Below are positions 16,277-41,590 of a DNA stretch of 64,000 nt, piece after piece. The notes beneath the pieces were generated by a model, which was not told where the DNA came from, searched no databases, and saw nothing but the letters and a program-made list of their open reading frames with translations. The first letter of the stretch is position 1; every line of letters begins with the position of its first letter. The position numbers and the translations under genes are program-made. The DNA lies in assembly GCF_013204825.1 (NCBI RefSeq), contig NZ_JABMKV010000001.1, positions 248,001 to 312,000 on the forward strand, given 5' to 3'. The stretch comes from Pedobacter boryungensis. Its GTDB lineage: Bacteria > Bacteroidota > Bacteroidia > Sphingobacteriales > Sphingobacteriaceae.

Positions 16277-17410
16277 TTATAATAACCCTTTTGTGCTTGG
16301 TAAAACCAATTTTTCAGCATCACGTTTAACAGCCATTTTAATTGCTTTTGCGAAAGCTTTAAAAATAGCTTCTATTTTATGGTGTTCGTTTTCGCCTTCT
16401 GCTTTTATGTTCAAATTACATTTTGCTGCATCGCTAAATGATTTAAAAAAGTGGAAAAACATTTCTGTGGGCATATCTCCAACCTTTTCACGTTTAAAAT
16501 CCGCATCCCAAACAATCCAGTTTCTGCCTCCAAAATCTATAGCAACTTGTGCTAAACAATCATCCATTGGTAAACAGAAACCATAACGCTCAATACCTAA
16601 TTTATTACCTAATGCTTGTGCAAAAGCCTCGCCAAGTGCAATTCCAGTATCTTCAATTGTATGATGTTCATCAATTTGTAAATCACCATTGGCAATCACA
16701 TCTAAATTCATACTACCATGTCTAGCAATCTGATCTAACATATGGTCGAAGAAATTTAAGCCGGTTTTGATGCTTGCTTTTCCAATTCCATCTAAATCTA
16801 AACCAATAGTAATGTCTGTTTCGTTGGTTTTACGAATGTGACGTACTTTTCTTGCGCCAGCTCTTAAAAATGTATAAATATCTTCCCATTTTTGAGTTTC
16901 TAAAGCAATTACATCGGTTAATTCATCAACTTTTGCCATTCCTTCAGTACTTCCTAATTCATCGTTTTGACGTAAGAAAATAGCTTTTGCGCCTAAGTTC
17001 TTAGCTAAAATCACATCATTTAATCTATCCCCAATTACGAATGAATTTTTTAAATCATAGCCTTCACCCAAATATTTGGTTAATAAACCAGTTTGAGGTT
17101 TACGAGTAGGGGCATTGTCTTTCGCAAATGTTCTGTCTATTACAATTTCGCTAAAAACAACACCTTCATTTGCAAACGTATCTATCATGAAATTGTGCAC
17201 TGGCCAAAAATTCTCTTCAGGATTTGAAGGAGTTCCCAAACCATCCTGATTAGTTACCATTACCAAATCAAAATCTAACTCAGTTGCAATTTTAGAAAGG
17301 TAATTTAATGATCTTGGGTAAAACTTCAGCTTTGCAAAACTGTCTACTTGCTCATCTGCTGGTTCGATGTTTAATGTGCCGTCACGGTCTATAAACAGTA
17401 CTTTTTTCAT
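16277..17410 (-). CDS. hisB: Bifunctional histidinol-phosphatase / imidazoleglycerol-phosphate dehydratase
   Basis: 377 residues fusing an N-terminal HAD phosphatase (FIDRDGTLN at residues 6-14, about 1-165) to IGP dehydratase (about 180-377, with [24 protein letters not shown] and the second metal-binding HHKIEA motif). It performs steps six and eight of the pathway. This fusion is the enterobacterial-like arrangement and is common in Bacteroidota. Its start overlaps the hisC stop by one base. Confidence 0.97.
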
Positions 17411-18450
17411 TATAATTTTTCTAAAATATTTAATAATTGATTATTCTCATCAATTGTACCAATAGTAATTCTTAAACATCCTTCGCAAAGCGATACTTTT
17501 GAACGATCACGAACAATTATACCTTTATCTACCAATAAATTGTAAGTATTCAACGCATCTGTTACCTCTACCAATATAAAATTAGCATCAGATGGATAAA
17601 CTTTTTTAACGAGCGTTAGTTTAAGTAATTCAGTGCTTAATCTTTCTCGCTCTGCAACTGTAATTCTAATCCATTCATTTACTTGTTGGATATTATTTAA
17701 CGCCGCTAAAGCTAAATCTTGAGTTGCCTGATTGATATTGTACGGTGGTTTAACTTTGTTCAGAATATCAATTACTGGTCGTGAAGAAAAAGCCATTCCT
17801 AAGCGCAGAGCGGCCAATCCCCAAGCTTTAGAAAATGTTTGAAGAATGACCAAGTTTGAATATTCAGTCAATTCTTGAATAAAAGTCTTCTGTTTTGCAA
17901 AGTTGATATATGCCTCATCAATTACTACCAATCCTTTAAAGTTGGCTAAAATGGTCTCAATATCTGTTCTATTGATAGAATTTCCAGTAGGATTATTTGG
18001 TGAGCAGATAAAAATCATTTTTGTATTTCCGTCAATCGATTCTGCAATTTTGTCTAAATCCAATTGAAAATTTGGCAATAAATCAACCTTTCTAACTTCT
18101 ACATCATTGATATTTGCCGAAACTTCATACATTCCATAAGTAGGAGGAAGGATAATGACGTTGTCTTTTCCAGGATTGCAAAAAGCTCTGTATAATAAGT
18201 CGATTGCTTCATCGCTGCCGTTGCCTAAAAAAGTATTTTCTATAGGTACGCCTTTAATTTTACTAATCGCATCCTTTAAATCTAATTGTAAAGGGTCTGG
18301 ATAACGATTGTAATTTGCAGGTAGCGGCGAGCCAAAACTATTCTCATTCGCATCTAAAAAGACACTTGCTTGTCCTTTAAACTCATCTCTTGCAGTAGAA
18401 TAAGGTTTTAAGGTTTTTATATTTTCTCTTTGTAAATCTTTAATATCCAT
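17410..18450 (-). CDS. hisC: Histidinol-phosphate aminotransferase
   Basis: 346 residues, a class I/II PLP aminotransferase. Visible motifs are [11 protein letters not shown] near residue 150, VIDEAYINF around 176, the PLP lysine in [14 protein letters not shown] near 208, and the C-terminal Arg in LRITIGT. It transaminates imidazole acetol phosphate with glutamate. Its start overlaps the end of hisD by eleven bases. Confidence 0.96.
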
Positions 18451-19729
18451 TTTCTTTTAACCTAATGGTGATTGCATTTTTGTGTGCTTGTAATCCTTCA
18501 GCTTCTGCCAAAACTTCTACTGTGTTACCTATATTTTGTAAACCTTGTGCTGATAAATGTTGGAATGTGATTTTTTTCAAGAAAGTATCAACTGAAACTC
18601 CTGAAAAAGCGCTAGCAAATCCACTTGTTGGTAAAGTATGGTTTGTACCTGAAGCATAGTCCCCAGCACTTTCCGGTGTTAAATTTCCTAAAAACACTGA
18701 GCCAGCATTACTGATTAGTGGAATTAGGGGTTCAAAATTTTCAGTTGCTAAAATTAAATGCTCTGGAGCATACAAATTGCTAAATTCCATGGCTTCAGCT
18801 AAATTTTCAGCATAAACTACATAAGAGTTTTCAATTGCTTTTGAAGCGATGTCCTTTCTTGGTAAATCAATTACTTGTTTTTTAATTTCTGAAATTACGG
18901 TATCAATAATTTTTTTCGAAGTGGCAACCAACACTGTTTGACTATCAATTCCATGTTCGGCTTGGGCTAGTAAATCGGCTGCAACAAATGATGGGTTTGC
19001 AGTTTCATCAGCTATTACTAAAACCTCCGATGGGCCAGCTGGCATGTCAATAGCAACTGTGTTTTGAACTAGCTTTTTTGCCTCAGTTACGTAACGATTT
19101 CCAGGTCCAAAAATCTTGTCAACTTTAGGAACTGTTTCCGTTCCAAAAGCCATTGCTCCGACTGCTTGAGCACCACCAACTAAGTAAACTTTTTCAATGT
19201 TTAATAAGGTAGAAACGTAAGCAATATAGGTGTTAATTTTGCCGTCACTTTGGGGAGGAGAACATACCACAATTTCTTTGCAACCTGCAATTTTTGCGGG
19301 GATGCCTAGCATCAAAAAAGTGCTCGGTAAAACTGCTGTTCCACCTGGAATATATAGTCCAACTTTTTCAATTGCTCTCACTTCTCTCCAGCAGTTTACA
19401 CCTGGCATTGTTTCAATTTTAGCTTCAGTTTTTAATTGCGCTTCATGAAATTTATAGATGTTTTGGTAAGCGATATTAATGGCATTTTTTACTTCTTTTG
19501 GGATTTGTTTTGCCAGTTCGTTAAATTCTTCTTTGTCCATGAATAAGCTAGACAATTTAACATTGTCAAATTTTTCGGCATAGGAGAGAAGAGCAGAATC
19601 TCCATCAGATTTCACCGTTGAAATAATACTTTGAACCCTAGATTGAATTAAATTATCATCTTCTGCCTTGCGTGAACAAAGTTTCTCTATTTCTTGTTGA
19701 GTTAAATCTTTATAACTGTAGATTTTCAA
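18440..19729 (-). CDS. hisD: Histidinol dehydrogenase
   Basis: 429 residues, full length. Conserved segments include [14 protein letters not shown] near residue 125, [16 protein letters not shown] near 205, [12 protein letters not shown] with the catalytic Glu-His pair near 257, and YAPEHL and [15 protein letters not shown] for zinc and substrate. It oxidises histidinol to histidine in two NAD-dependent steps. It is separated from hisG by 67 bases, the largest gap within the operon. Confidence 0.97.
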
Positions 19730-19796: not shown

Positions 19797-20648
19797 TTAT
19801 ATGATGATTTTTTCAATCGGCATTACTACAATTCCTTCTGCACCTGCTAATTTTAAGCTATTAATTTTTTCCCAAAAATCTTGCTCGGCAATTACAGAAT
19901 GCACAGCAACCCATCCTTCTTCAAACAGCGGAACTATTGTAGGACTTTTTACTCCTGGCAACAAATCCACAACAGCTTGTAAATTTTCTTTAGCTACATT
20001 TAAGACTACATATTTTGTGGCTTTTGCTTTAAGAACAGATTGTATGCGTTGTAATAATTCTAGCACTTCAGGATTTAATTCCATCCCTTTGCTAGCAATC
20101 AAAACAGCTTCTGAATCCATCACATTTTTAAATGGTTTTAAGCCGTTACTTTTCAATGTTCCGCCAGTAGAAACGATGTCAAAAATTGCATCACTTAAAC
20201 CCAAACCTGGACCAATTTCTACCGAGCCAGAGATGTTTCTAATCTGCGCATCGATGTTATTTTCTGATAAATATTTTTGAAGAATTACAGGGTAAGAAGT
20301 GGCAATTGCTTTGCCATTTAATTGCGCTAATTCGGTGATGTTACTGGTGCTTTGAACCGCAATTTTTAAGGTGCATTTTCCAAAGCCTAGCTTCTGCAAA
20401 TACGACACATTTGCACCTGCTTCTATAATTACATTTTCGCCAACAATGCCCAAATCGGCAATGCCATCTTGAACGTATTCCGGAATATCATCATCTCTTA
20501 AAAAAAGAATTTCCAAAGGGAAATTAGCAACGGTTGCTATTAATGAACTTTTGTAGTTTTCGAAAGAAAGACCACAATTTTTAAGAATTTCTACTGATTT
20601 TTCGTTTAATCTACCCGATTTTTGGATAGCAATTTTAAGTGTTTTCAC
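19797..20648 (-). CDS. hisG: ATP phosphoribosyltransferase, long form
   Basis: 283 residues. The length and the C-terminal part ending EGIVVMPIEKIII show the long HisG form with its own regulatory (ACT-like) domain for histidine feedback, so no HisZ is needed. The N-terminal half shows KIAIQKSGRLNEKS and YVQDGIADLGIVGENV, typical of periplasmic-binding-like folds. It catalyses the first, committed step of histidine synthesis. It is the first structural gene of the operon, preceded by a 160-base leader with a His-rich peptide. Confidence 0.97.
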   Translation of the reverse strand: MKTLKIAIQKSGRLNEKSVEILKNCGLSFENYKSSLIATVANFPLEILFLRDDDIPEYVQDGIADLGIVGENVIIEAGANVSYLQKLGFGKCTLKIAVQSTSNITELAQLNGKAIATSYPVILQKYLSENNIDAQIRNISGSVEIGPGLGLSDAIFDIVSTGGTLKSNGLKPFKNVMDSEAVLIASKGMELNPEVLELLQRIQSVLKAKATKYVVLNVAKENLQAVVDLLPGVKSPTIVPLFEEGWVAVHSVIAEQDFWEKINSLKLAGAEGIVVMPIEKIII

Positions 20649-20686
20649 TTTGTATAAAATTAGGAATAAGAATATTGAATCTGTTT

Positions 20687-20709
20687 AAAAACCGTTTTGC
20701 GTACAAAAC
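20687..20709 (-). terminator. Attenuator terminator candidate in the his leader
   Basis: On the minus strand GTTTTG (20709-20704), loop TACG, CAAAAC (20699-20694) is followed by GG and five Ts. It lies just downstream of the leader peptide and 39 bases before hisG. TGTACG (20705-20700) is also exactly complementary to CGTACA (20752-20747) inside the His codon run, which would give a competing structure. The stem is short and A/T-rich, so folding must be computed. Confidence 0.5.
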
Positions 20710-20715
20710 ATATAT

Positions 20716-20775
20716 CTATCTATCGCCACAATGGCGATGATGTAAATGTACGTGATGGTTTAAAACTTGGATCAT
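20716..20775 (-). CDS. hisL: Histidine operon leader peptide
   Basis: A 19-residue frame, MIQVLNHHVHLHHRHCGDR, with six His in nine residues, lies 67 bases before hisG and 40 bases after a good promoter box. A His run of this density directly ahead of a his operon is the hallmark of transcription attenuation, as in the enteric hisL. The coding run itself contains a hairpin (ATCGCCA at 20738-20732, loop TTG, TGGCGAT at 20728-20722), and a terminator-like stem follows. It should sense charged tRNA-His by ribosome stalling. Nothing similar is seen ahead of other operons in the window. Confidence 0.85.
   Translation of the reverse strand: MIQVLNHHVHLHHRHCGDR
20722..20738 (-). promoter_or_regulatory. 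Leader-peptide hairpin in the his attenuator
   Basis: A perfect 7-bp GC-rich stem with a three-base loop lies within the last His codons and the codons after them. A ribosome stalled on the His codons would cover it, so it is a candidate control stem of the attenuator. Confidence 0.5.
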
Positions 20776-20814
20776 ATATTGCTTTCTTTCCGTAATTTTG
20801 GGCAGAAGATGATG

Positions 20815-20846
20815 CAAATATAGCTTTGTTAATGTAAAATCAAAAA
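20815..20846 (-). promoter_or_regulatory. Promoter of the his operon
   Basis: The minus strand has TTTTTG (20846-20841), an 18-base spacer, and TATATTTG (20822-20815), a perfect TAnnTTTG box with a -33-like TTTG. Transcription would start near 20808, giving about 33 bases before the leader peptide and 160 before hisG. Confidence 0.65.
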
Positions 20847-41480: not shown

Positions 41481-41590
41481 AAGCTGTAGCACCTATTTGA
41501 GTAATTCCTGCTATCCACTCCAATCTTTTTTGTGCTTCGACAAGCCCAGCAAAACAAAAAAGTATTTCCGTTACTCTCAGGTTTAGTTAA
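41481..41590. repeat. Dispersed intergenic repeat with palindromic core
   Basis: The 334-base gap 41445-41778 has no gene. It contains CTGCTATCCACTCCAATC, then CTTTTTTGT (41525-41533) and its exact complement ACAAAAAAG (41554-41562) around TTCGACAAGCCCAGC, then TATTTCCGTTACTCTCAGG. This layout resembles the CTATCCG...ATTTCCGCTACTATC repeat found between genes in Flavobacteria and Sphingobacteria, here diverged. It may also terminate the response-regulator transcript. The rest of the gap is AT-rich with no other signal. Confidence 0.5.

Follow-up and report, generated by a model that had tools for sequence, protein, structure and literature searches.

A conserved histidine-rich leader before hisG of Pedobacter boryungensis and its putative translational output in the Sphingobacteriaceae

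The leader of the histidine biosynthesis (his) operon of the soil bacterium Pedobacter boryungensis was analyzed in a window of 64,000 nucleotides (nt; the whole stretch of DNA under study, contig NZ_JABMKV010000001.1, positions 248,001 to 312,000), in which leader and operon are on the - strand and the leader occupies the intergenic stretch between two divergent genes. All coordinates below are those of the window and all features are on this strand. The leader is slightly favored to be a histidine-sensing leader peptide attenuator under ribosome control with a translational output in the Sphingobacteriaceae, with good support for the sensor step and an output step that would consist in the closure of a long hairpin over the hisG start. 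Computation brought out a conserved His frame, no terminator, co-variation of a basal stem, and a shift of the hisG start codon. Leader peptide attenuation of the his operon is textbook transcription control, and it is an evenly balanced proposition that the whole family has rewired its histidine attenuator from termination to translation, with the terminator gone, the ribosome-binding regions of leader and hisG paired at the base of a long hairpin that closes in the wake of the leader ribosome, and a fixed UUG or GUG start of hisG. If so, a single family would have connected the same sensor to another output, with the textbook design retained in related families, offering a natural side-by-side test of a change in attenuator output in bacteria mostly without Shine-Dalgarno pairing and a small native amino acid switch for genetic work in Bacteroidota.

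The histidine-rich leader frame

An initial annotation made from the letters alone had placed a frame of 19 residues with His at 7, 8, 10, 12, 13, and 15 before hisG, and this frame was located at 20716..20775 as a hisL-like leader open reading frame (ORF) encoding MIQVLNHHVHLHHRHCGDR (19 codons followed by a stop, six of them for His). Six His in nine residues were reached by 0/3000 dinucleotide shuffles of the intergenic stretch, so the leader was correctly recognized and is not a product of chance. A His-rich frame was found approximately 125-135 nt 5' of hisG in 59/59 loci of the same genus and before hisG in 46/47 further Sphingobacteriaceae loci of a family-level sample and 39/39 evaluable loci of a second sample, such that a general lack of the frame in relatives, which the annotation had named as grounds for its refutation, was not encountered. 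A class-wide sample of other Bacteroidia families contained His-rich frames in 34 of 46 loci, encoding quite different peptides (e.g., MTRTHHHHHLNCSEKPE), and this class-wide conservation strongly supports the proposal that a His-codon leader peptide regulates the his operon.

The leader core across the Sphingobacteriaceae was HHxHxHHR. Within its His codons, bases 1 and 2 were fixed and base 3 alternated between CAT and CAC in the family comparison (mean entropy in the leader of 0.58, 0.39, and 0.96 for codon positions 1, 2, and 3, respectively), and since the His codons changed almost solely at base 3, the frame has been selected as a peptide-coding His run. The leader thus has the make-up of an amino acid leader peptide attenuator, i.e., a short ORF rich in codons for the pathway product ahead of the first gene of the pathway, and its putative role as a conserved sensor of histidine supply is well supported by the comparison of sequences. 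A pattern search of the genome gave no second leader of this type (a single other match elsewhere, the reversed control pattern likewise giving one match), a Pfam search with the leader peptide returned no family, and the Rfam His_leader covariance model (RF00514) did not match the leader even at E<=10.

Pairing between the leader and the hisG start region

The minimum free energy (MFE) fold of the window leader was a single hairpin of nested stems (-33.5 kcal/mol, z -3.07). Its innermost element was hairpin A (ATCGCCA/TGGCGAT; 20722..20738, arms 20738-20732 / 20728-20722), formed by His codons 12-15 and the codons before the stop, which in 29 Pedobacter leaders had a nearly invariant 6 bp stem and a variable loop and which corresponds to the GC-rich hairpin annotated within the His codons. 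Outside it, strand b (CGTACA inside the His codons, 20747..20752) paired with b' (TGTACG within a further hairpin, T, 20700..20705), the two being exactly complementary as the annotation had it (20752-20747 and 20705-20700), and strand a (leader codons GTTTTAAACC, 20757..20766) paired with a' (GGTTTTTAAAC, 20683..20693). The basal stem was formed by strand d (AAAATTACGGAA, 20788..20799) in the 5' untranslated region just ahead of the leader start and strand d' (TTCCTAATTTT, 20656..20666), which covers positions -18 to -8 of hisG over the translation-initiation region. Hairpin T and the pairs b:b' and a:a' are mutually exclusive structures overlapping the His codons, as in known attenuators, b:b' itself being weak.

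The basal stem joins the ribosome-binding region of the leader itself to that of hisG. When the family was read side by side, the strand immediately ahead of the leader ATG was complementary to the strand before or over the hisG start and both differed between genera (e.g., AAAGTATTGA/TCAATACTTT, TAATCAG..ACCAA/TTGGTCTGATTA, and AAAATTA(C)GGAA/TTCCTAATTTT in the window). RNAalifold on MAFFT alignments recovered hairpins A and T in Pedobacter. The basal stem escaped it, as the flanking sequences could not be aligned, and species-swap tests were used instead, comparing native partner duplexes with 5000 permutations of partners between species. Native d:d' was better than 5000/5000 swaps in 39 non-redundant leaders, and no swap was as good either in Pedobacter (n = 29, 0/5000, -14.2 native versus -11.5) or in the other Sphingobacteriaceae genera (n = 62, 0/5000, -9.6 native versus -7.8). 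The effect was gone with a reversed d' control (not significant), and leaders of other families, also serving as control, gave no signal (1143/5000 swaps as good). Excess d:d' pairing mapped on the hisG side to -25..+5 in Pedobacter and -25..-10 in the other genera, and on the leader side, again in the other genera, mainly to positions -10..0 relative to the leader ATG. For a:a', no swap was as good in the non-Pedobacter genera (0/5000), and significance was not reached within Pedobacter (260/5000), while the b:b' signal was weak overall (z -3.6) and nil within groups, leaving strand b not independently proven.

The hisG start codon was TTG or GTG in 90/91 of the tested Sphingobacteriaceae genomes with no in-frame ATG nearby, versus ATG in 38/40 from other families, and a weak start codon adjoining one strand of a stem is in keeping with control at translation initiation. 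The swap tests, the position map, and the fold agree in placing the hisG start region in a paired state, as expected of a translational attenuator, and this paired state would be the repressed one. In the proposed mechanism, a ribosome supplied with sufficient charged tRNA-His would complete the leader and depart, whereupon the leader RNA would zip outward, hairpin A first and then b:b', a:a', and d:d'. In the resulting long nested hairpin, the base would cover the start regions of leader and hisG, so that hisG would be poorly translated. When histidine is short, the ribosome would stall at the first His codons (7-8) and occupy strands a and b, hairpin T would replace b:b' and a:a', and the zipper would stop, such that the hisG start region, marked by a weak UUG or GUG, would stay available. 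The first His was residue 7 in 63/91 leaders, by which the rear of a stalled ribosome would adjoin d. When pairing across the ribosome was barred, hisG-start accessibility rose from 0.42 to 0.59 in Pedobacter (a rise in 28/29 leaders) and was unchanged in other families.

Several results weigh against this mechanism. Outside Pedobacter, the rise with pairing across the ribosome barred was small (0.58 to 0.61), and equilibrium folds that allowed pairing around the ribosome kept d:d' closed with a mean hisG accessibility of 0.42 versus 0.43. Opening would therefore hinge on steric or kinetic effects, and a simple thermodynamic opening of hisG by the stalled ribosome is unsupported once pairing around the ribosome is allowed. 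The d:d' swap test was not significant inside the single genera g14 and g16, the latter having d' approximately 35-40 nt before hisG. Ten leaders from three genera (L065, L075, and L084; L082, L083, and L130; L087, L120, L121, and L124) combined an ATG start of hisG, at a distance of 168-388 nt from the leader ATG, with the lack of a terminator, and direct masking cannot be the whole story in these leaders. The contrasts at family level may represent a single ancestral change, and the start codon correlation one such change followed by loss in three genera. L065, L075, and L084 retained TTGAAACC close to where the start normally lies, as though extra sequence had entered at that site.

Hairpin T and alternative explanations

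The initial annotation read the leader as enteric hisL-type transcription attenuation, in which hairpin T with a T run would be an intrinsic terminator and its pairing with the His codons the antiterminator. Hairpin T (GTTTTG-TACG-CAAAAC, 20694..20709), the annotated terminator-like stem, is by conservation and compensatory changes (6 bp, three pairs with double compensatory changes) a real hairpin, and it accompanies a His leader and a promoter, as hisL-type control would have it. Some Pedobacter species have TTTTTTTCC after T, and canonical terminator-type leaders occur in other Bacteroidia families, which also speak for that explanation. However, the stem is weak (at most 6 bp, AU-rich, about -2.9 kcal/mol), and a scan for intrinsic terminators (best dG <= -8 in the leader comparison) was negative in the window and identified one in 0/42 Sphingobacteriaceae leaders, the window included, versus a strong terminator before hisG in 30 of 34 leaders of other Bacteroidia families (median -16 kcal/mol), which acted as the positive control of the scan. 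Ten Sphingobacteriaceae leaders with a long spacer to hisG likewise contained no strong terminator. The T run 3' of hairpin T was poorly kept (at least 6 T of 9 in 7/24 Pedobacter and 7/51 other leaders), and that of the window (20691-20687) was part of GGTTTTTAAAC, the strand paired with leader codons GTTTTAAACC at 20766-20757. The annotated stem was consequently upheld as a conserved structure, but not as a terminator, and its T run proved to be a stem strand. Hairpin T as terminator was discarded on the strength of the scans of the window and the 42 family leaders, with the 34 other-family leaders as positive control.

The sign of the pairing was also opposite to the enteric arrangement. 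In enteric hisL, the strand with the His codons has its pairing partner outside the terminator, and a stalled ribosome frees the antiterminator. When a ribosome footprint was imposed on the His codons in the folds, a:a' and b:b' were lost and hairpin T was left formed, so a stalled ribosome did not disfavor the hairpin in the terminator position. Because the His codons pair with hairpin T itself, a stalled ribosome would free T, and T acting as a terminator would shut the operon during starvation. Classical hisL-type attenuation is accordingly improbable for this leader, and hairpin T is better read as a permissive alternative hairpin.

The most serious of the other explanations, although an unlikely one, places the output in elongation or the fate of the mRNA, with transcription ended by Rho or the long hairpin cut by an RNase once the leader ribosome leaves and without direct masking of hisG. 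It would accommodate the lack of an intrinsic terminator in the tested Sphingobacteriaceae leaders, including the ten with distant hisG, and a C run follows strand a' in many non-Pedobacter leaders; yet the C run is missing from the clade of the window, and basal stem pairing with hisG -25..+5 and the UUG/GUG starts would be left unexplained. Very improbable is a function of the d/d' inverted repeat as paired DNA operators bound by a regulator protein, with the leader as a separate element: strand d is itself palindromic in some genera (TTATTAATAA), but the repeats are mostly non-palindromic, co-change between genera, have one arm over the hisG start, and belong to the layout that nests a:a', b:b', and hairpin A. 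The faintest chance is given to a leader that mainly recruits ribosomes or is a non-regulatory relic with no histidine sensing. Leader genes near a start can boost downstream translation (PMC4833913), but the leader stop lies approximately 65 nt before hisG, far past the 11-14 bp peak in Bacteroidetes (PMC4833913), and this explanation also has to contend with His selected at 5/8 core codons across the family and with the class-wide His-rich frames.

The C run itself (CCCC or CCTCC) was conserved between a' and d' in an AT-rich context in many non-Pedobacter Sphingobacteriaceae (e.g., L074 and L255-L294), where no pairing partner was found for it.

Related systems and the his locus

On sequence grounds, the Pedobacter element is classed as a leader peptide attenuator apart from the hisL-type transcription attenuators, because a terminator was tested for and not found. 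It resembles hisL of the Enterobacteriaceae (Rfam His_leader) in the short His-rich peptide before hisG, the first his operon gene, and in the alternative hairpins over the His codons. Unlike hisL, it has no intrinsic terminator, its His-codon strand pairs straight to the supposed terminator, its basal stem extends to the hisG start, that start is non-AUG, and it has no Rfam match. The terminator-type His leaders of other Bacteroidia families are at the same site and likewise His-rich, but differ by a strong terminator (30/34), an ATG start of hisG (38/40), and no d:d' co-variation. In four of these (L136, L142, L148, and L150), the strong terminator was complementary, through its loop and 5' arm, to a strand immediately 5' of hisG (e.g., GTTTGAGTACA and TGTACTCAAAC in L150), by which a second structure may form after termination has been escaped.

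In the erm and cat translational attenuators, the start region of the downstream gene becomes exposed when a ribosome stalls on the leader. Their signal is an antibiotic and not amino acid shortage, and the classic cases mask a Shine-Dalgarno site, unlike the Pedobacter leader; Bacteroidota mostly do not use Shine-Dalgarno sites. A literature search revealed no his leader described for Pedobacter or Sphingobacteriaceae, nor the present variant, a comparative attenuator study of 2004 being outside the search; the abstract of that study, by Vitreschak and colleagues, reportedly mentions Bacteroidetes. In layout, the closest known system is the LEU element before leuA in Actinobacteria, for which no terminator has been described and whose leader region forms pairs with the leuA ribosome-binding site (PMC1262725). 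In that element, the pairing partner of the Shine-Dalgarno box is the run of Leu codons itself, a pseudoknot has been proposed, and mutation of the Leu codons was reportedly without effect (PMC1262725), whereas the Pedobacter leader pairs by means of a separate strand further upstream and has nested stems. In broad terms, leader peptide attenuation is already known from Bacteroidota: the transcriptome of Flavobacterium psychrophilum gave clues to it at amino acid operons, and the Flavobacteriaceae have a conserved, structured 5' element upstream of hisG without an Rfam match (PMC9723704).

The promoter that the annotation had placed ahead of the leader was borne out by conservation, its -7 element (TATATTTG, 20815..20822) recurring across the genus alignment with a pattern match in most family members. 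A -33-like element (TTTTTG, 20841..20846) read from the letters only, which we take to be such from the Bacteroidota promoter consensus, lies 18 nt 5' of it. The leader is followed by hisG with a GTG start (19797..20648; Pfam PF01634 and PF08029), hisD (18440..19729; PF00815), hisC (17410..18450; PF00155 aminotransferase in his context), and hisB (16277..17410; a HAD phosphatase and IGP dehydratase protein, PF00475 and PF13242). The closest named HisG was that of P. planticolens with 98% identity. No hisG match was obtained in the small-genome (1.7-2.4 Mb) Sphingobacteriaceae of genera g6, g11, and g23 in the family sample. An Rfam scan of the window returned only a tRNA and a Flavo-1 RNA motif, the latter at 41500-41588 with 51 bits and above the gathering score.
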